Shown: one piece after another, positions 23,384 to 31,736 of the stretch
Numbering within the stretch: position 1 is the stretch's first letter
Layout of the letters: every line of letters begins with the position of its first letter
Assembly: GCF_038592905.1 (NCBI RefSeq)
Contig: NZ_CP151943.1
Coordinates: forward strand, 3,360,501-3,424,500
Direction: 5' to 3'
Source of the DNA: Neobacillus sp. FSL H8-0543
Lineage (GTDB): Bacteria; Bacillota; Bacilli; Bacillales; Cytobacillaceae
Length of the DNA stretch: 64,000 nt
Translations under genes and position numbers: made by a program
The notes under the pieces: generated by a model
What the model was told of the DNA's origin: nothing
Seen by the model: only the letters and a program-made list of their open reading frames with translations
Databases searched by the model: none

Positions 23384-24634
23384 ATGAATGAGGGCATTAA
23401 CAATCCAAAGTTAATATATGAAGAGAAAAAAGCACTAAATCTATTTTTATGGTTATTTTATATTACCTATATTGCATATGAACTGCTCTTTTATTATATT
23501 TATCCTAGTTTTTCGAATGGGGGAATAATTGGAAATTCAGATGGCGTAGGTCCTTTGGCGTATGTTTTTATTTTTGGTTTAATACCCGTAACCATGCATT
23601 TTTACAAAAAAGGAAATCCATATATTGTTAAATATCTATTTGTATTTACCTTTATAATTCTAGATACAGTAAATAGCTTAATGATGTATCTTGGAACGGA
23701 CAAAACATTTGCTGCAGGTCATATAGTCGAAGTTTTAATTGTACTTTTCACACCTATATTTGTTAATAAAAGATATTTCTGGACTGTATCAATAGTCATG
23801 ATTGTTAAATATGTATTTGTGGGGATTGTTTTATGGGAACCCTTAGTTCTAGCCCCTATGGGGATATATATTATACTTTCTTTATTGGCGTATGCCATAT
23901 TAAATCGTTTTAGCTCTTATATTAACTCCATAACACTAGCACATAATGAACTTCGCCAAAAAGAGAAGCTTGCTGTTATCGGTCAAATGGCCACAGCTAT
24001 TGGACATGAAATCAAAAATCCACTTTCTTCATTAAGGGGATTTACTCAATTGCAACAAGAACGGCACCCAAATACTAGTGAATATGCTCCAATCATGATT
24101 CAAGAAATTGATAGAATCAACTCGATAGTCAATGACTTGATGTATCTTGGTAAACCAAAAGTTATTACATTTGAAAAAGCAAGTATTGAGGAAATCATTA
24201 CATACACATTGTCGATTACTAAACAGAAGTCTGAAAGTCAAGGAGTAATGGTTGATACCATAATGGAAGGGCCGCTGCCTCCATTAGATTGCGATGCAAA
24301 CCAGTTAAAACAAATGTTCATAAATTTGATTAAAAACGCGAAAGAATCGATGCCAAACGGTGGAAAGATAAGGATAAATGTAAAAGTAATTGAAGGGAAA
24401 AGGATGCTAATTTCAATACAGGATGAAGGTTGTGGAATAGCAGACGAAGACATTTTAAGTTTGGGTGAACCATTCTATACAACAAAACAGGATGGTACAG
24501 GGCTTGGGTTATTGGTTTCAAATCAAATTATCAGTGATCACCATGGAAAAATGACCATTGATAGTAGTCTTGATAAGGGGACGACGGTAAATGTAATCAT
24601 ACCTATAACTCAAAATAATACTAGAGCGAAATAA
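23384..24634 (+). CDS. Sensor histidine kinase with seven-helix-like membrane sensor
   Basis: This 416-residue kinase has a hydrophobic N-terminal sensor of about six helices (residues 15-185), then HisKA with AIGHEIKNPLSSLRGFTQ and a HATPase domain with NLIKNAKESMPNGG, DEGCGI and GTGLGLLVSNQI. The catalytic half resembles the sporulation kinases KinD/KinE. The membrane half is clearly related to the N-terminus of the HD-GYP protein encoded next. I choose the ATG after AGGGGAG; the longer open frame upstream lacks a site. No cognate response regulator is nearby. Confidence 0.87.
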   Translation: MNEGINNPKLIYEEKKALNLFLWLFYITYIAYELLFYYIYPSFSNGGIIGNSDGVGPLAYVFIFGLIPVTMHFYKKGNPYIVKYLFVFTFIILDTVNSLMMYLGTDKTFAAGHIVEVLIVLFTPIFVNKRYFWTVSIVMIVKYVFVGIVLWEPLVLAPMGIYIILSLLAYAILNRFSSYINSITLAHNELRQKEKLAVIGQMATAIGHEIKNPLSSLRGFTQLQQERHPNTSEYAPIMIQEIDRINSIVNDLMYLGKPKVITFEKASIEEIITYTLSITKQKSESQGVMVDTIMEGPLPPLDCDANQLKQMFINLIKNAKESMPNGGKIRINVKVIEGKRMLISIQDEGCGIADEDILSLGEPFYTTKQDGTGLGLLVSNQIISDHHGKMTIDSSLDKGTTVNVIIPITQNNTRAK

Positions 24635-24771: not shown

Positions 24772-25935
24772 ATGATTCCGCATGAAGAAAAACAAACGGT
24801 TAAATGGTTTCTATTAATTTCATATATTATTTTGATTGGCTATGATATTTTTTATTATTTTATAGCACCTATAAGCATAGTTGATAGGGAAATAGGTTTT
24901 CCAAGCATCTATTGGTATTTGAACTATGTGGTACTTTTGCTAATATTTCCAGCGGCGCTTTATTTTAATAAAACTAATAAGCAATATTTGACTAAATATG
25001 TATTTGTTTTTAGCTATTTAGTAACCTCACTTTTTGTGGATATCTTAACCTACTATGGTATCGGTGATACTTATTCAAGCGGGAATATCGTAGATGTATT
25101 TTTAATCCTATCATTACCGCTTTTCCTTAATACAAGATATTACTGGATTGTGACTCTCGGTGTTACTGTAAAATATGCACTTACTGGTATTATATTACAG
25201 ATTTTCTTTGTTATCATGCCAATTATATTAATAGCTATTTTATCCACTATGTCCTACTTTCTGTTAGTACGTTTTCAAGGGTATGTACGGGCTATTAGTA
25301 AAACCTATGATAACCAGTTAGAAGGGATTGTTAAAGGAGTTATTGCTACACTTGAACTGAAGGATCAATATACTAGAGGTCATAGTGAACGTGTAGCTAG
25401 TTATGCCTTACTAATGATAAAAGAAATTGGGAAACTCTCAAAAGAGGAAGAAAAGTCATTTTATTATGCTTGTTTACTACATGATATTGGTAAAGTGAAT
25501 ATTCCTGATCATATTCTAATGAAACCAGCTAAACTTACTAAAGAGGAATTTGATATCATAAAAACTCATCCAACTGTTGGAGCAGAAGCAGTTAAAAATG
25601 TTGAAGGAATTAAGGATAGTATTTGTGTGATTCGCTCTCATCATGAACGTTGGGATGGGAAAGGCTATCCTGATCAATTAACGGGTGAAGAGATTCCTTT
25701 GCTTGCTAGAGTCACTGCATTTGCAGATGCCTTTGATGCAATGACTTCTTCAAGGTCCTATCGAGATGCAATGCCTGTTGAAGAAGCCTATCGTCGAATT
25801 ATTGAAGGAAAGGGTACCCAGTTTGATCCAAGGCTAGTGGAAGACTTCATCCTGGTTTATCCGTCATGGGTTAAATTTCATGAAACATATCCATGGTCAA
25901 AAAAATGGGAATTACTTAAGGAGGTGGAAAGATGA
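24772..25935 (+). CDS. HD-GYP domain protein with membrane sensor (probable c-di-GMP phosphodiesterase)
   Basis: Residues 1 to about 180 form a multi-helix membrane sensor homologous to that of the kinase just upstream: both share FLxxxYI.., KY(L/V)FVF and NxRYxW segments at matching spacings. Residues 195-370 are a complete HD-GYP domain with LLHDIGKVNIPD, SHHERWDGKGYP, FADAFDAMTS and the final GTQFDPRLVEDF. HD-GYP proteins usually hydrolyse c-di-GMP. The start follows CTGGAGGA. The last codons contain a perfect ribosome-binding site for the overlapping short peptide gene at 25932. Confidence 0.9.
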   Translation: MIPHEEKQTVKWFLLISYIILIGYDIFYYFIAPISIVDREIGFPSIYWYLNYVVLLLIFPAALYFNKTNKQYLTKYVFVFSYLVTSLFVDILTYYGIGDTYSSGNIVDVFLILSLPLFLNTRYYWIVTLGVTVKYALTGIILQIFFVIMPIILIAILSTMSYFLLVRFQGYVRAISKTYDNQLEGIVKGVIATLELKDQYTRGHSERVASYALLMIKEIGKLSKEEEKSFYYACLLHDIGKVNIPDHILMKPAKLTKEEFDIIKTHPTVGAEAVKNVEGIKDSICVIRSHHERWDGKGYPDQLTGEEIPLLARVTAFADAFDAMTSSRSYRDAMPVEEAYRRIIEGKGTQFDPRLVEDFILVYPSWVKFHETYPWSKKWELLKEVER

Positions 25936-26003
25936 GAATCCGGAAGCTAAAGAAAGTAAGAACAACTTGCTGGTGGTGCCCTTGGATCGGAATTAAAACA
26001 TAG
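25932..26003 (+). CDS. 23-residue Cys/Trp-rich peptide (candidate RiPP precursor or signal peptide)
   Basis: The ATG overlaps the HD-GYP stop codon (ATGA). It is preceded by AAGGAGGTGG at 25918-25927, essentially a perfect Shine-Dalgarno sequence at good spacing. The 23-residue product has a strongly basic N-terminal half (MRIRKLKKVR) and the unusual C-terminal half TTCWWCPWIGIKT, with a CWWC pair and a third Trp. It is followed at once by a terminator and then by a PqqD-like/M50 membrane protease. This is the arrangement of a precursor peptide with a maturation or processing protein, but I recognise no known peptide family and expression is not proven. Confidence 0.55.
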   Translation: MRIRKLKKVRTTCWWCPWIGIKT

Positions 26004-26010
26004 GAAAATG

Positions 26011-26042
26011 GGATGCTAGCGAATGCTATGCATCCTTTTTTT
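26011..26042 (+). terminator. Terminator between the short peptide gene and the M50 protease
   Basis: GGATGCTAGC pairs with GCTATGCATCC (one bulge) around a GAAT loop, followed by seven T residues. Leaky termination here would give more peptide than protease transcript. Confidence 0.85.
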
Positions 26043-26073
26043 AAATTATATGGTAGTAAGGAACGGTGTTTAG

Positions 26074-27255
26074 ATGACCATAACAATCGATTCATGTCTT
26101 TCATTAGTCCCGATTGAGATTCGTAAGGATAAGAAACATTTTATTGTCGAGGATCAGATATCTGGCGAGTTTTATGAAATGTCAGAGGTTTGCATTGATG
26201 CAATCAATTTGATACATCAAGGTGACCAATTAGGAGATATTGAGCGTGAGCTTAAAGATAAATATCCTATGGAGGAAGTTAATCTCCTGGATTTTGGTGA
26301 ACAGCTGCTTGAATTAGATTTAATTGCTGAAATTGACGGGGTACAGGTTGATAAGAAGCAAAAGCAAAAGGAAAGATTGGGTTTTTTAGCGATTCCTCCA
26401 ACTATTGGGAAAATATTTTTCAATAAGCTTACCTATCCATTGTATTTTGTATTATTTATAATAAATCTTTTCCTTTTCATTACCCATCCCTCTCTATTTC
26501 CACATCATGAAGATATATTTGTTTTTGACATCATGGCATTAAATGTGGTTTTATGGATGTCTTTTACGTTTTTGCTGCTGTTAGTACATGAGTTTGGTCA
26601 TATTTTGGCCATGAGAGCACACAATCTCCCCACAAAACTGGGGGTTGGACACCGTATGTTCTTTGTGGTCATTGAAACGGATATGTCATCCGTTTGGAAA
26701 CTTGCACCGAAAGAGCGAAATGTTCTTTTTCTAGCAGGTCTTTGTTTTGATATGGTTATCCTCTTCATTGTCCTTGTTTCTCAATTGTTGTTTCCGAGTG
26801 GTTCCTGGTTATTTAATGGATTATTAAACTTAGCGGTGTTTGACATTGTTCTGAGAATTATCTATCAATGCTGTATATATATGAAAACAGATTTATATTT
26901 TGTTTTTGAAAATGTATCTGGATGCTACAATTTAATGGAAAATGCGAAACAAAATATTAGAAATAAACTTACCTTTCTAAGACTCAATGCTCGGAAAGAA
27001 GTTCTGTTTTCAGAGGAAAGAAGGACGGTATTTCTCTATACTATCCTGTACTTCCTTGGGGTTGTCATATCAATTTCATTGTATTTCATTTATTATATTC
27101 CAGAAATTATCCATGCAGGGAACAAATTACTCCCTGGGTTTACCCATCCGCCAACAAGCTTACTTTTCTGGGATGCCGTACTGTTTTCACTTCAGGTTGG
27201 GATTTTTATTCTATTGCTTTTAAATTCTTGGCGCAAAAAATACCTTCCATCATAA
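26074..27255 (+). CDS. Membrane protein: PqqD/RRE-like domain fused to M50-type zinc metalloprotease
   Basis: Residues 1 to about 95 look like a PqqD-type peptide-recognition domain (IRKDKKHFIVEDQISGEFYEM..., then DIERELKDKYP and LLELDLIAEI). The remainder is a polytopic membrane region with the zinc motif HEFGH at residues 172-176. A possible third-ligand Asp226 lies in LAGLCFDMVI, as in site-2-protease-like peptide proteases (YydH-like). Such fusions occur in RiPP and peptide-export loci. No radical SAM enzyme or ABC exporter is adjacent. The gene lies 70 bases after the Cys/Trp-rich peptide gene, its likely partner. The ribosome-binding site (AAGGA) is weak. Confidence 0.78.
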   Translation: MTITIDSCLSLVPIEIRKDKKHFIVEDQISGEFYEMSEVCIDAINLIHQGDQLGDIERELKDKYPMEEVNLLDFGEQLLELDLIAEIDGVQVDKKQKQKERLGFLAIPPTIGKIFFNKLTYPLYFVLFIINLFLFITHPSLFPHHEDIFVFDIMALNVVLWMSFTFLLLLVHEFGHILAMRAHNLPTKLGVGHRMFFVVIETDMSSVWKLAPKERNVLFLAGLCFDMVILFIVLVSQLLFPSGSWLFNGLLNLAVFDIVLRIIYQCCIYMKTDLYFVFENVSGCYNLMENAKQNIRNKLTFLRLNARKEVLFSEERRTVFLYTILYFLGVVISISLYFIYYIPEIIHAGNKLLPGFTHPPTSLLFWDAVLFSLQVGIFILLLLNSWRKKYLPS

Positions 27256-27403: not shown

Positions 27404-28486
27404 ATGCATTTAAATACTTCTACTACTATAAAAGCTGAAAGCTCGATTGATAACGCATTTGCATCCCATTTTGCTAAATCGATGTTCTTAACGGTTTCTG
27501 CTATTGTATTGTTATCTTTTATCGCCACTAGAATGTTTACACATGTTGATTTAAATCTTTATGGATACATGGTCGGAACGATTGTATTCATTGGCGGCTT
27601 TTTCTATCGCTTTATAGCTTGGGGGGAAAGACCGCCAACAAAGCTTTTTATTAAAAAAGGCTTAAAACTGCTATTTAGAAAAAGTACAGCTAAAACATCT
27701 GTTGATCATTTAGCCATCTACAACTTCATCTGGAATCGTGGATTCTACCGCTGGATTCAGCATATTTTAATCGGTTGGGGTTGTGTTTTAGCCTGCCTAG
27801 TCACGTTTCCACTCGTGTTTGGCTGGATGTATTTTACCATGGACGAAAACGGTCTCTATACAATCGTCTTAATGGGAATGAACTTGATGGAAGTTAAAGC
27901 AGATGGGATCATCGCTTGGTTCTCATATAATGCACTAAATATTTCAGCAACAATGGTTATTGCCGGAGTATGTATGGCATTATACCGCCGCTTGAAAAAC
28001 ATGCAGGCAAGAGCAGAACAAAAATTCATTTATGACTTCCTGCCGCTTTACTTATTATTGTTTATTTCAATTACAGGTCTTTTATTAACCTTCCAGAATG
28101 TTTTCCTGCATGGCTGGATGCAGCCGCAGATGTCATTGATTCATCAATTCTCTGTAATCGTGACACTGATTTACTTGCCCTTTGGAAAGCTAGCCCATAT
28201 ACCTTTCCGTCCGATGAGTGTATTAGCAAAGAATTACCGTGAGCATTACAGTGCACAAGCAATGAAAGAATGTAAGGTTTGTGGAGATGAATTTGTTTCA
28301 GTTGAACAATCAAGCGACGTTGTTCAAGTATTAGGTGTAAATGATATCGAATTTAACATGGAAGATGGCTTTAATCTAGCTGAATTATGTCTGCCATGCC
28401 GCAGAAAATATAGAATTTCAAGGTTCTCAGGATTCGCGACACATCAAGTGAAGGTCAAGGAGGCAAACCAGAATGCAAAGGGATAA
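27404..28486 (+). CDS. Membrane subunit of the nitrate-reduction complex (NarI/cytochrome-b-like)
   Basis: This 360-residue protein has about six membrane segments and conserved histidines inside or next to them (WIQHILIGWG, SLIHQFSVIV, LAHIPFRP), consistent with haem binding and quinol oxidation. The C-terminal cytoplasmic tail has two CxxC motifs (CKVCGDEF and CLPCRRKY), possibly for a metal or cluster. It heads the operon, and its end overlaps the catalytic-subunit gene by 14 bases. I infer that it passes electrons from menaquinol towards the ferredoxin and molybdenum subunits; assignment to NarI proper is not secure. Confidence 0.7.
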   Translation: MHLNTSTTIKAESSIDNAFASHFAKSMFLTVSAIVLLSFIATRMFTHVDLNLYGYMVGTIVFIGGFFYRFIAWGERPPTKLFIKKGLKLLFRKSTAKTSVDHLAIYNFIWNRGFYRWIQHILIGWGCVLACLVTFPLVFGWMYFTMDENGLYTIVLMGMNLMEVKADGIIAWFSYNALNISATMVIAGVCMALYRRLKNMQARAEQKFIYDFLPLYLLLFISITGLLLTFQNVFLHGWMQPQMSLIHQFSVIVTLIYLPFGKLAHIPFRPMSVLAKNYREHYSAQAMKECKVCGDEFVSVEQSSDVVQVLGVNDIEFNMEDGFNLAELCLPCRRKYRISRFSGFATHQVKVKEANQNAKG

Positions 28487-30641
28487 GTTTTTTAAAGAAG
28501 TTGAGAATGTAAGACATCCGAATGAAACACTTGTGAAAACACACTGCAGCTATTGTGGAATGCAATGTGGGATGAACTTACGTGTAAATACAAAGACAAA
28601 TAAGATTATCGGTGTTGAGCCTCGTTATGACTGGCCTGTTACATTAGGAAAAATGTGTCCAAAAGGGGTTACTGCTTATCAGCAAACCAACCATGATGAT
28701 CGCCTGCTAAAACCTTTAATCCGTGATGATGCATCCTTAAAAGGAACAAAGGACGGCTTCCGTGAAGCAACCTGGGATGAAGCATATGACTTAATCGTGA
28801 AAAAATTCCAAGAGCTGCAACATGATTATGGTAAGGATTCACTTAGTGTTTATAGCGGTGTATCTATGACCAATGAAAAATGTTACCTTACTGGAAAATT
28901 TGCACGTGTTGGCTTACAAACTCGCTACATCGACTATAACGGCCGTTTCTGCATGGCAAGTGCTGCAGGTGGATTTATGAGATCCTTTGGGGTTGACCGT
29001 GGTTCAACACTTCCTTGGACAGATCTTCATGAAACGGACTGTTTGTTTATTGCCGGCAGTAACACGGCTGACTGTCACCCAACATCAATGTTCCGCGTTT
29101 GGGCAGTTCAGGAAAGAGGCGGTTATTTAATCGTAGCTGATCCTCGTGAAACCCCTATTGCAAGAAGAGCAGATGTTCATTTGGATTTAAGACCAGGAAC
29201 AGATCTAGCGCTTGCAAATGGAATTTTAAACTTACTCATTCAAAACGGCTATGCTGATGAAGAATTTGTTAACAATCATACGAACGGTTTTGAAGAAACA
29301 AAAGAACTAGTGAAAGAATTCACACCAGAATATACAAGCGAATTAACAGGAGTTGCACCTGAAAAGATAATCAAAGCTGCTGAAATTTACGGAAAAGCAC
29401 CTAATGCGATTGTTATGTTTGCTCGTGGTATCGAACAACAGGTTAAAGGTGTAGACAATGTTTCAGGGTACACAAACATGGCGTTAGTGACTGGTAAAAT
29501 TGGTCGGCCAAAAGCAGGTGTTGCAACATTTACGGGACAGGGAAATGGTCAAGGCGGTCGTGAGCATGGTCAAAAAGCTGATGCATTACCTGGCTACAGG
29601 AAAATTGCAAATCCTGACCATGTTAAAGCAGTAGCTAAGGTGTGGGGTATCGAACCAGAAGAAATGCCAAAAGAGGGTGTTTCCGCATATGAAATGTTTG
29701 GATTAATGGAGCAAAAAACAATTCGTGGCTTGTACTTATTATGCTCAAATCCTGCAGTATCTGCACCAAACTTAAATTATGTAAGGGAACAGTTAAAGAA
29801 CCTGGATTTCATGGTATGCGCTGATTTCTATCTATCGGAATCTGCTGAATATGCTGATGTAATCTTGCCAACAACTACATGGTCTGAGGACGAAGGGACA
29901 GTTACTAACCTTGAAGGACGTTGTATAAAAATTAACAAGGCACAAGAGCCACTTGGAGAATCTAAACCAGATTGGCAAATTCAAGTTGAGCTGTGTGAGC
30001 GTTTAGGAAGAGGGAAATACTTCTCTCATTTGAATACGGCTAGTGATGTTGGCGACGAATTCCGTTTAGCTTCAAAAGGTGGCTATGCAGATTACTACGG
30101 AATCACTTGGGATAAAATCGAAAAGCAAGATGGCGTATTCTGGCCATGTAAAGATGAAGATGATAAAGGAACACCACATATGTTTTTGGATAAAAAATTC
30201 TATCATCCTGATGGAAAAGCAAAAATTTGTGCGTTGCCATACCGTCCGCCGGCTGAAGAGCCAAATGAAGACTTTCCATTACGCTTAACAACAGGACGTG
30301 TTGTCTATCATTATTTATCAGGTAACCAAACAAGAAGAATCAATTTCTTACGTGATATGTGCCCAGAGCCATTTGTAGAGGTACATCCAGAAACAGCTGC
30401 CCTCTACAATATCGAACATGAAGAATTTGTCCGCTTATATACCCGTAGAGGCGAAGCAGAATATAAAGTGAAAATTACTGAAGCGATTCGAAAAGATACA
30501 GTTTTCGTTCCATACCATTGGGGTCATGATAAATCTATTAATCTATTAACAATTCCAGCCCTAGACCCGATGTCACGGATGCCTGAATTTAAAGCATGCG
30601 CAGCGCAGATTGAAAAACTAGAACTAAAGAAGGTGCAGTAA
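28473..30641 (+). CDS. Molybdopterin oxidoreductase, NasC/NapA-type nitrate reductase catalytic subunit
   Basis: This 722-residue protein binds one N-terminal 4Fe-4S cluster (Cys25, Cys28, Cys32 and Cys62) and a bis-MGD molybdenum cofactor. The proposed Mo ligand is Cys160 in YIDYNGRFCMAS, the cysteine type of assimilatory NasC and NapA, not the SeCys/Cys context of formate dehydrogenase. Further cofactor segments are GQGNGQGGREHGQKADALPGY and the C-terminal TTGRVVYHYLSGNQTRR. Length and sequence are close to B. subtilis NasC. There is no Tat signal, so it is cytoplasmic. The neighbours suggest a membrane-coupled rather than NAD(P)H-fed enzyme. Confidence 0.88.
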   Translation: MQRDKFFKEVENVRHPNETLVKTHCSYCGMQCGMNLRVNTKTNKIIGVEPRYDWPVTLGKMCPKGVTAYQQTNHDDRLLKPLIRDDASLKGTKDGFREATWDEAYDLIVKKFQELQHDYGKDSLSVYSGVSMTNEKCYLTGKFARVGLQTRYIDYNGRFCMASAAGGFMRSFGVDRGSTLPWTDLHETDCLFIAGSNTADCHPTSMFRVWAVQERGGYLIVADPRETPIARRADVHLDLRPGTDLALANGILNLLIQNGYADEEFVNNHTNGFEETKELVKEFTPEYTSELTGVAPEKIIKAAEIYGKAPNAIVMFARGIEQQVKGVDNVSGYTNMALVTGKIGRPKAGVATFTGQGNGQGGREHGQKADALPGYRKIANPDHVKAVAKVWGIEPEEMPKEGVSAYEMFGLMEQKTIRGLYLLCSNPAVSAPNLNYVREQLKNLDFMVCADFYLSESAEYADVILPTTTWSEDEGTVTNLEGRCIKINKAQEPLGESKPDWQIQVELCERLGRGKYFSHLNTASDVGDEFRLASKGGYADYYGITWDKIEKQDGVFWPCKDEDDKGTPHMFLDKKFYHPDGKAKICALPYRPPAEEPNEDFPLRLTTGRVVYHYLSGNQTRRINFLRDMCPEPFVEVHPETAALYNIEHEEFVRLYTRRGEAEYKVKITEAIRKDTVFVPYHWGHDKSINLLTIPALDPMSRMPEFKACAAQIEKLELKKVQ

Positions 30642-31199
30642 ATGAAAAAGAGGCTTTATTTAGAACTTGAAAACTGTATTGGGTGTCGCTCTTGCTTGGC
30701 GGCTTGTACGCAATGCGGCGGCCATGAGGAGCGTAATCGTAACTATGTTTACGATGTGAACCCGCTCGTCAACCGTCAAACGATGCCTCTGATGTGCCTT
30801 CACTGTGTGAATCCAGCCTGTGCGAGAAGCTGTCCGGCTCAGGCTATTCAGATTCACGAAACTGGCGCGGTTTTATCTGCTCTTGTAGAAAAGTGTATAG
30901 GTTGCCAGAACTGTACCATTGCCTGTCCGTATGGTATTCCAAAGTTTGATACTGAGCAAAATCTAATGTACAAGTGTGATTTATGTATCGACAGGACGAA
31001 AGACGGCATACCGCCAATGTGTGCGAGTGTTTGTCCTTCCAATACAATCCAGTGGTTAACAGAGGAAGAAATTGATGCGAAACAAAGTCAATTTAATTTA
31101 GACAATGATAAATGGGTGACAAGTATGCCGTTAGAAGGCGAAACAAATGTAAGAGTGAATCTTCCTGGTATTTTACAGGGCGTCACGAAATTGTTTTAG
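30642..31199 (+). CDS. Four-cluster 4Fe-4S ferredoxin subunit (DmsB/NrfC-like)
   Basis: This 185-residue protein has four cysteine groups typical of electron-transfer subunits of molybdenum oxidoreductases: CIGCRSCLAAC, CLHCVNPACARSCP, CIGCQNCTIACP and CDLC...CASVCP. Together they can hold four 4Fe-4S clusters. There is no signal peptide. It starts at the base after the catalytic-subunit stop and should wire the catalytic subunit to the membrane or Rieske partners. Confidence 0.9.
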   Translation: MKKRLYLELENCIGCRSCLAACTQCGGHEERNRNYVYDVNPLVNRQTMPLMCLHCVNPACARSCPAQAIQIHETGAVLSALVEKCIGCQNCTIACPYGIPKFDTEQNLMYKCDLCIDRTKDGIPPMCASVCPSNTIQWLTEEEIDAKQSQFNLDNDKWVTSMPLEGETNVRVNLPGILQGVTKLF

Positions 31200-31211
31200 G
31201 AGGGATTAGAC

Positions 31212-31736
31212 ATGACGGATAAGAATAATAAAATCCCATTTGAAGAAGATAATTATACCCATAATATAAATCGCAATAATGAAAGAAAGCTAGACCGTCG
31301 CGGGTTTATGAAAACATTGGTAGGTGCAGCGGGCGTATTCGCTGTTTCCTCTCTTCCATGGGGAGTATTGGCGGCTAAAGAATTAAATGGCCTTGGGGAT
31401 AAAAAATATCCGAAACAGAAAATAACCGATGTCAAGTCATTGGCTGTTGGTGATTCAACTGACTTTGCCTTTCCTGGAGAACATGATAGTGCAATTTTAA
31501 TAAGACTTTCGGAATCGAAGTACGTAGCTTATCAAAACGCCTGTACCCATCTTCGTTGTCCTGTATTTTGGAAAAAGGATGAAGGTGAAATGATTTGCCC
31601 CTGTCATCATGGAAAGTTTGACGTGGAGACGGGTACACCAACTGCGGGTCCGCCAAGACGCCCACTCCCTGAAATTTATGTGAAAGTAGAAAACGGTGCT
31701 GTATATGCCGTGGGGGTGAAACGTTATGAAGCGTAG
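31212..31736 (+). CDS. Rieske 2Fe-2S protein with Tat-type signal
   Basis: This 174-residue protein has a twin-arginine motif DRRGFMK near residue 29 followed by a hydrophobic segment, so it should be folded in the cytoplasm and exported or anchored by Tat. The Rieske domain has the ligand pairs ACTHLRC and CPCHHGKFD and the typical PPRRPLPEIYVKVENG end. A Rieske protein within a molybdenum-enzyme operon suggests quinol oxidation on the outer face, as in bc-type complexes. It starts 12 bases after the ferredoxin gene with GGAGGG as site. Confidence 0.9.
   Translation: MTDKNNKIPFEEDNYTHNINRNNERKLDRRGFMKTLVGAAGVFAVSSLPWGVLAAKELNGLGDKKYPKQKITDVKSLAVGDSTDFAFPGEHDSAILIRLSESKYVAYQNACTHLRCPVFWKKDEGEMICPCHHGKFDVETGTPTAGPPRRPLPEIYVKVENGAVYAVGVKRYEA

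Follow-up and report, generated by a model that had tools for sequence, protein, structure and literature searches.

What is a 23-codon reading frame doing between the gene of a membrane-bound HD-GYP protein and the gene of a membrane protease in the genome of Neobacillus sp. FSL H8-0543 (5.3 Mb, one contig), and which of its neighbours work with it? The question is raised by a stretch of 64,000 nucleotides of contig NZ_CP151943.1 (positions 3,360,501 to 3,424,500, hereafter the window), for which an original prediction, made from the letters alone, proposed a minimal system consisting of a Cys/Trp peptide and a protease that cuts it. The comparison of related loci confirms that the short frame is a real gene and shows that the MASE12-HD-GYP gene located upstream is part of the peptide-protease unit; the gene, the triad of genes and the co-variation of the peptide with the MASE12 sensor domain are solid. 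We consider it probable that the three genes form a peptide-signalling cassette, in which a pheromone would be cut by a protease carrying a RiPP recognition element (RRE; RiPP, ribosomally synthesised and post-translationally modified peptide) and would be sensed by MASE12, setting the hydrolysis of a cyclic dinucleotide.

The peptide gene is located on the forward strand at 25932..26003 and comprises 23 codons and a stop, from the ATG at 25932 to the TAG at 26003. Its translation, MRIRKLKKVRTTCWWCPWIGIKT, contains a basic leader (residues 1-12, 25932-25967), the motif CWWC (residues 13-16, 25968-25979) and a variable tail (residues 17-23, 25980-26000). The Shine-Dalgarno sequence AAGGAGGTGG is found at 25918..25927 on the same strand, and the start codon and the TGA of the HD-GYP gene, which ends at 25935, overlap as ATGA. 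These features had all been read correctly in the original prediction, as had the terminator-like hairpin in the gap between the peptide and protease genes (about 26010..26042, forward strand), an inverted repeat GGATGC...GCATCC with a T-run and a folding energy of -15.4 kcal/mol (z-score of the spacer, -3.9), though a simple pattern-based terminator scan found no terminators and missed this hairpin. Hairpins of the same type are conserved, with z < -2 in 64 of the 71 peptide-protease spacers folded, the three remaining loci, outside this set, having spacers of 0, 299 or 1922 nt. A sigma-70 scan gave seven sites against 8.0 expected by chance, that is, no excess. In N. mesonae (L102), an insertion of about 1.9 kb with a reverse-transcriptase-like frame lies directly 3' of the hairpin, between the peptide and the protease, and resembles a group II intron.

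The evidence that the frame is a gene comes from 154 loci with a protease match, collected by searches of relatives and from fetched regions, 77 of which are non-redundant by protease sequence. As was expected in the original prediction, a short Cys/Trp frame accompanies the protease homologues: a CWxC peptide is encoded not more than 2.6 kb upstream of the protease in 74/77 loci, and the three loci lacking it (L128, L129 and L130) contain distant proteases of 25-30% identity. Without selection of loci, an open reading frame (ORF) with the features of the peptide was found within 250 nt upstream of the protease in 72 of the 77 loci and in 0 of 1540 shuffles; in the remaining five the peptide is situated farther upstream (two loci) or is absent (L128-L130). 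The distant proteases L205-L214, which stand outside the 77-locus count, had no recognisable cassette peptide at their loci.

The 74 loci encode 72 different peptides, 18-26 residues long; the start codon of the genes is ATG (64), TTG (9) or GTG (1), and a Shine-Dalgarno-like 5-mer precedes 73 of them. The distance to the HD-GYP gene is -4 in 32/74 loci and does not exceed 40 nt in 71/74. The peptides share one layout, a near-invariant basic leader (consensus MKIRKLKKVKTT), an invariant CWxC and a hypervariable tail; the presence of CWxC in 74/74 is partly by construction, since the search pattern was itself of the CWxC type, and the form CWWC is found in 66. The peptides were divided, from their own sequences, into class A (TCWWC or TPCWWC without a short aromatic end) and class B (all others). 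The codon-level conservation anticipated in the original prediction is clear in the leader (residues 2-10), where the non-synonymous rate (pN) is 0.085 against a synonymous rate (pS) of 0.79; in CWxC, pN is 0.045 with a saturated pS and falls to 0 in the 59 class A loci, and the tail is nearly free (0.565 vs 0.669). The genome G050 provides a side observation: at its locus L131 the protease has been lost, a MASE12 frame of 398 aa is kept upstream and the leader of the peptide has drifted (MNILKLKKLITACWWCAWLGV). This is the one case of leader drift where the protease is gone, and the locus is possibly an eavesdropper or a decaying one.

The protein encoded upstream of the peptide (24772..25935, forward strand, 387 aa) contains a membrane sensor domain (residues ~5-166; Pfam MASE12, 1.3e-46) and an HD-GYP domain (~192-355; HD_5, 7.4e-35), and is proposed to be both receptor and output of the cassette. 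In an alignment of 29 sequences, D238 and the motif HHERWDGxGYP are invariant and H237 is retained in 28 (Q in L076). The closest solved relative is named as a 3'3'-cGAMP phosphodiesterase and another one as a cyclic di-GMP (c-di-GMP) phosphodiesterase. The HD-GYP gene is present in all 74 non-redundant loci that have the protease and the peptide, and in every cassette locus of at least 8.5 kb, from Neobacillus, Fredinandcohnia, Ornithinibacillus and Gracilibacillus, a MASE12-HD-GYP gene stands upstream of the peptide, the other neighbours being variable. When neighbouring ORFs of at least 70 aa were clustered across 17 diverse cassette loci, only the protease and the MASE12 proteins proved common to all of them, the next most frequent cluster being found in five. 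In these 17 loci, no radical SAM enzyme, exporter or immunity gene is fixed beside the cassette, and the statement of the original prediction about the first two thus holds. Its view that the peptide and the protease make up the whole minimal system is not supported, since the MASE12-HD-GYP gene is just as constant a part of the loci and encodes a sensor domain that changes together with the tail.

The distribution of the three genes is concordant. Among 100 relatives, MASE12 was found in 63 genomes, the same ones as the peptide: 61 with the peptide and a non-distant protease, G050, where the peptide has drifted and the protease is gone, and G056, where the peptide is near a contig end. In a sample of the order (397 genomes), the peptide was found in 46 at E <= 0.01, 43 of them at E < 1e-7; the other three, at E 0.007-0.009, were discounted as chance matches, as were the weak peptide matches elsewhere in the 100 relatives at E 0.1-1. 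All 43 peptide genomes are among the 62 in which a protease, distant ones included, was found, and MASE12, found in 54 genomes (52 over the cut-off), occurs in 42 of the 43; in the last one, the gene is cut by a contig end and the HD domain is kept. The order HD-GYP - peptide - protease was observed in 30/30 of the loci examined from these 43, and the linkage spans nine families of the order sample. In all ten MASE12 genomes without the peptide, the sole MASE12 protein is a kinase. A sample of the phylum (398 genomes) gave the peptide in two genomes, both of the family of the source genome, and in none outside the order, and it says little about the order itself because seven genomes of the order were among those listed.

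The protease (26074..27255, forward strand, 393 aa, HEFGH at residues 172-176) is the proposed maturation enzyme of the cassette. Structural modelling agrees with the PqqD-like N-terminus and the membrane HEFGH protease recognised in the original prediction: the predicted RRE/PqqD-like domain (residues ~7-89) has a winged-helix fold of three strands and three helices, similar to RREs solved with leader peptides, and the predicted core (~103-340) has the fold of a membrane M50/site-2 protease (S2P) with the HExxH motif. The charges of the two presumed partners are opposite, with a mean net charge of -10 in the RRE region and of +3 to +6 in leader residues 1-10, and processing of the peptide by this enzyme is very likely. 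The protease was found in 64/100 relatives, including 57 of 60 genomes of the same genus (its own among them; G006, G050 and G056 gave no match) and 7 of 40 others. NCBIfam searches revealed weak similarity of 13 of 23 protease homologues to the daptide protease model NF041824 (best E 4.6e-10), which the protease of the window did not match at E 0.01, and the YydH/LiaK model was reached by one of the 23 (E 0.0054). A protein encoded at L128 weakly matches Pfam PqqD and M50. In other Bacillales, a ThiF-family protein is encoded beside RRE-M50 relatives in all four loci whose neighbour was scanned (L205, L206, L211 and L214), apparently separate uncharacterised peptide-maturation loci.

The link between the peptide and the sensor domain is based on the co-variation of the tail, taken from residue 11 on, with the neighbouring proteins, evaluated by Mantel tests with 199 permutations (lowest attainable p, 0.005) that ignore relatedness. 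Across 47 loci of the genus, the tail correlates with MASE12 of the HD-GYP protein at rho 0.81 (0.82 given the flanking genes), and at 0.52 given all other genes (p 0.005). The HD domain follows the tail at 0.745 (0.34 given everything else), PqqD at 0.20, MASE12 of the kinase encoded nearby at 0.11, M50 at 0.01, the kinase at -0.07 and the flanking genes at -0.06 and -0.03. In class A alone (n=34), the correlation persists for MASE12 (0.41; 0.37 given all others), M50 (0.235) and PqqD (0.20), but not for the HD domain (0.08) or the kinase MASE12 (-0.04). All 74 loci give 0.71 for MASE12, 0.61 for HD, 0.24 for PqqD and 0.18 for M50. In 25 independent nearest pairs, MASE12 reaches 0.76, HD 0.66, M50 0.53, PqqD 0.51, the kinase 0.42 and its MASE12 0.33; in 16 A-A pairs, MASE12 reaches 0.86, M50 0.78, PqqD and CytB 0.54 each and HD 0.14. 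The tail is thus partly linked to the protease core too, which is what cleavage near the tail would lead one to expect.

Trees and single residues point in the same direction. In quick trees, the class B label has to change eight times on the flanking-gene tree (at least 6 changes forced by supported branches), seven times on the protease tree (3), nine times on the kinase tree (3) and once on the HD-GYP tree, the last with a long-branch warning for L083. For PG[WY]K tails, present in six loci, the label has to change 6 times on the flank tree, 6 on the protease tree, 5 on the HD-domain tree and once on the MASE12 tree, the HD-domain count being less firm as it is derived from 164 conserved columns. 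W48 of MASE12 is absent from all six PG[WY]K loci and present in 31/31 other class A loci, and W24 is present in 5/5 loci with tails of the IYxGK type and in 0 of 46 others. When the window is compared with its sibling L135, the flanks are 97-98% alike, the protease core 91% and MASE12 59%, and the tails differ (PWIGIKT in the window, PYIPGWK in the sibling). A trait typical of pheromones is therefore present, namely a variable peptide and a sensor domain that co-vary between close species. The MASE12 columns linked to the tail were not significantly enriched on the predicted outer face of the membrane.

These observations can be assembled into the following scheme. The small gene would yield a precursor in which CWxC is constant, the basic leader is nearly so and the tail differs from species to species, and the gene's translational overlap with the HD-GYP gene, together with the hairpin before the protease gene, would provide more precursor than protease. 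The acidic RRE domain would bind the basic leader, and the predicted site-2-protease core would cut the precursor in or at the membrane and help to free the CWxC-tail fragment, perhaps with a disulphide between its two cysteines. MASE12 of the HD-GYP protein, fixed beside the peptide and co-varying with it, would recognise the tail of a peptide coming from the same or other cells and set the hydrolysis of a cyclic dinucleotide, probably c-di-GMP. With 14 GGDEF matches and five c-di-GMP-I riboswitches, the genome content is compatible with c-di-GMP as the messenger, which may act through these riboswitches, one of them preceding a sinI-like biofilm anti-repressor gene. This riboswitch (G000:C1:3429733-3429822; L216 ~1501-1590) is located about 5 kb past the window end, directly upstream of the SinI-family gene (PF08671, E 2.5e-11), an arrangement that would connect c-di-GMP with the biofilm/sporulation switch of the source genome. 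Reception of the peptide by MASE12 appears likely from the co-variation and the linkage, and extracellular signalling is our best guess.

The main rival to extracellular signalling is an intracellular function, where the peptide is never secreted, but serves as a membrane-associated small subunit that binds and tunes the MASE12-HD-GYP protein of its own cell, the RRE-protease destroying it, an intramembrane turnover switch. The 4-nt overlap between the HD-GYP gene and the peptide gene in those 32 loci is what a co-translated partner might show, the 17 loci have no exporter in common, the co-variation fits direct contact as well as it fits pheromone sensing, and the lack of significant outer-face enrichment agrees with this possibility too. 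On the other hand, tails that are hypervariable between species as close as those of the window and L135 are expected of pheromones that discriminate between partners, not of a private subunit, and the protease has relatives that carry RiPP-protease annotations or adjoin ThiF-family proteins; we regard a private subunit as unlikely, while giving it some weight. Pure linkage, with the HD-GYP and peptide genes exchanged together as neighbours without functional contact, would account for their adjacency and frequent overlap, for the correlation of the HD domain when both peptide classes are pooled and for that of the protease core in A-A pairs. It is very improbable, given that in class A the tail tracks MASE12 and not the HD domain lying between MASE12 and the peptide, that the PGWK label requires five changes on the HD-domain tree vs one on the MASE12 tree, and that the linkage persists across nine families. 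A smaller run with 23 loci, superseded by the larger one, gave weaker support in class A alone: the correlation with MASE12 was 0.434 and fell to 0.215 given the flanking genes (p 0.075), and PqqD, M50 and CytB stood at 0.35-0.42.

The original prediction had left open whether the peptide signals or kills, and its overall interpretation is partly supported. Signalling is favoured; killing is unsupported because the cassette is present in nearly all sampled genomes of the same genus, no immunity gene is fixed and the tails track a receptor-like domain. An antimicrobial or cannibalism peptide of the epipeptide or bacteriocin kind, matured by an EpeP/YydH-like protease, would fit the Trp-rich, cationic precursor and the weak daptide protease (13/23) and YydH/LiaK (1/23) matches of the protease relatives, but neither an immunity gene nor a transporter nor a modifying enzyme is common to the 17 loci, the protease is carried by 57/60 genomes of the genus and the domain tracked by the tail belongs to a phosphodiesterase, so such a role is highly unlikely. 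The tandem Trp codons and the conserved terminator-like hairpin just past the stop might also suggest a leader peptide of a transcription attenuator, where the stalling of ribosomes at Cys/Trp codons controls read-through into the protease gene. It is, however, the amino acids of the leader and CWxC that are conserved, with synonymous change free; the tail tracks a protein domain encoded upstream, and in N. mesonae the peptide is still kept at 1.9 kb from the protease. Attenuation as the function of the frame is therefore hardly credible, although attenuation and a peptide function could coexist.

Other genes around the cassette are less constant. A MASE12-histidine kinase (23384..24634, forward strand; MASE12-HisKA-HATPase_c by Pfam) is a frequent, non-obligatory neighbour, and no response regulator was recognised among the genes read beside it. 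Its MASE12 has diverged to about the same extent as that of the HD-GYP protein, yet hardly follows the peptide tail, and the ligand of the kinase may therefore differ. Downstream, at 27404-31736 of the window, lie genes for a membrane subunit, a molybdopterin oxidoreductase and iron-sulphur (FeS) and Rieske proteins; this set adjoins the cassette in most Neobacillus loci and not in the examined loci of Fredinandcohnia, Ornithinibacillus and Gracilibacillus.

To our knowledge, the known peptide signals of Gram-positive bacteria work through histidine kinases or cytosolic receptors. The chances are about even that the cassette represents a new class of peptide quorum sensing in Gram-positive bacteria, with a second-messenger phosphodiesterase as the receptor, a CWxC pheromone released by the RRE-guided intramembrane protease, and several pherotypes that pass between species, each as a matching peptide and MASE12. 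If so, MASE12, a sensor domain without a known ligand, would gain both a ligand and a function, and direct sensing of a peptide by an HD-GYP enzyme would couple communication between cells to control by cyclic dinucleotides in a single step; the cassette would also provide a minimal example of an RRE-guided intramembrane protease that is easy to test, its likely substrate being encoded alongside. Searches of open-licence PMC papers, a coverage outside which subscription papers and preprints fall, found neither a description of the cassette nor a ligand for MASE12. Genes of 18-26 codons are easily omitted from annotations, and the system could therefore have escaped notice despite its presence in nearly all sampled genomes of the genus.

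Among known systems, the daptide intramembrane metalloprotease family NF041824 is the NCBIfam family most frequently found among relatives of the cassette protease; unlike daptide clusters, the cassette loci have no further enzyme gene in common. The ThiF-associated RRE-M50 proteases (L205, L206, L211, L214 and also L128) are of similar length, belong to the M50 family and show 25-29% identity, but their loci contain neither a recognisable cassette peptide nor a MASE12 protein. The general plan of the cassette resembles that of Agr (AgrD, AgrB/MroQ, AgrC), with a short precursor carrying a leader, a membrane protease and a polytopic membrane receptor, and the exchange of peptide-MASE12 pairs recalls the agr variable block, which, in the excerpted text of PMC12312760, spans the peptide and the receptor and has species or group types. 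In contrast to Agr, the fixed sensor of the cassette is an HD-GYP phosphodiesterase and not a histidine kinase, the MASE12 kinase hardly co-varying, and the protease is modelled as an RRE-site-2 protease and not as an AgrB-type one, a distinction drawn without a sequence comparison to agr proteins; the peptide has CWxC and lacks the charged C-terminal region of 14-15 residues that the same excerpt ascribes to AgrD (PMC12312760). In the YydF/EpeX epipeptide system, too, a small precursor is encoded beside a membrane M50 protease, YydH/EpeP, which is thought, according to excerpts of PMC7026026 and PMC10885120, to cut and export it. The cassette differs in that the 17 loci share neither a radical SAM epimerase nor an ABC transporter and in that its protease carries an N-terminal RRE-like domain. 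The proposed output has its closest parallels in the phosphodiesterase RpfR, which senses the Burkholderia diffusible signal factor (BDSF), and a diguanylate cyclase that senses autoinducer-2 (AI-2), both as described in an excerpt of PMC8846402: there, as would be the case in the cassette, a quorum-sensing molecule acts directly on an enzyme of c-di-GMP turnover, but the ligands are a fatty acid or AI-2 rather than peptides, and the sensors are PAS or dCACHE domains rather than MASE12.

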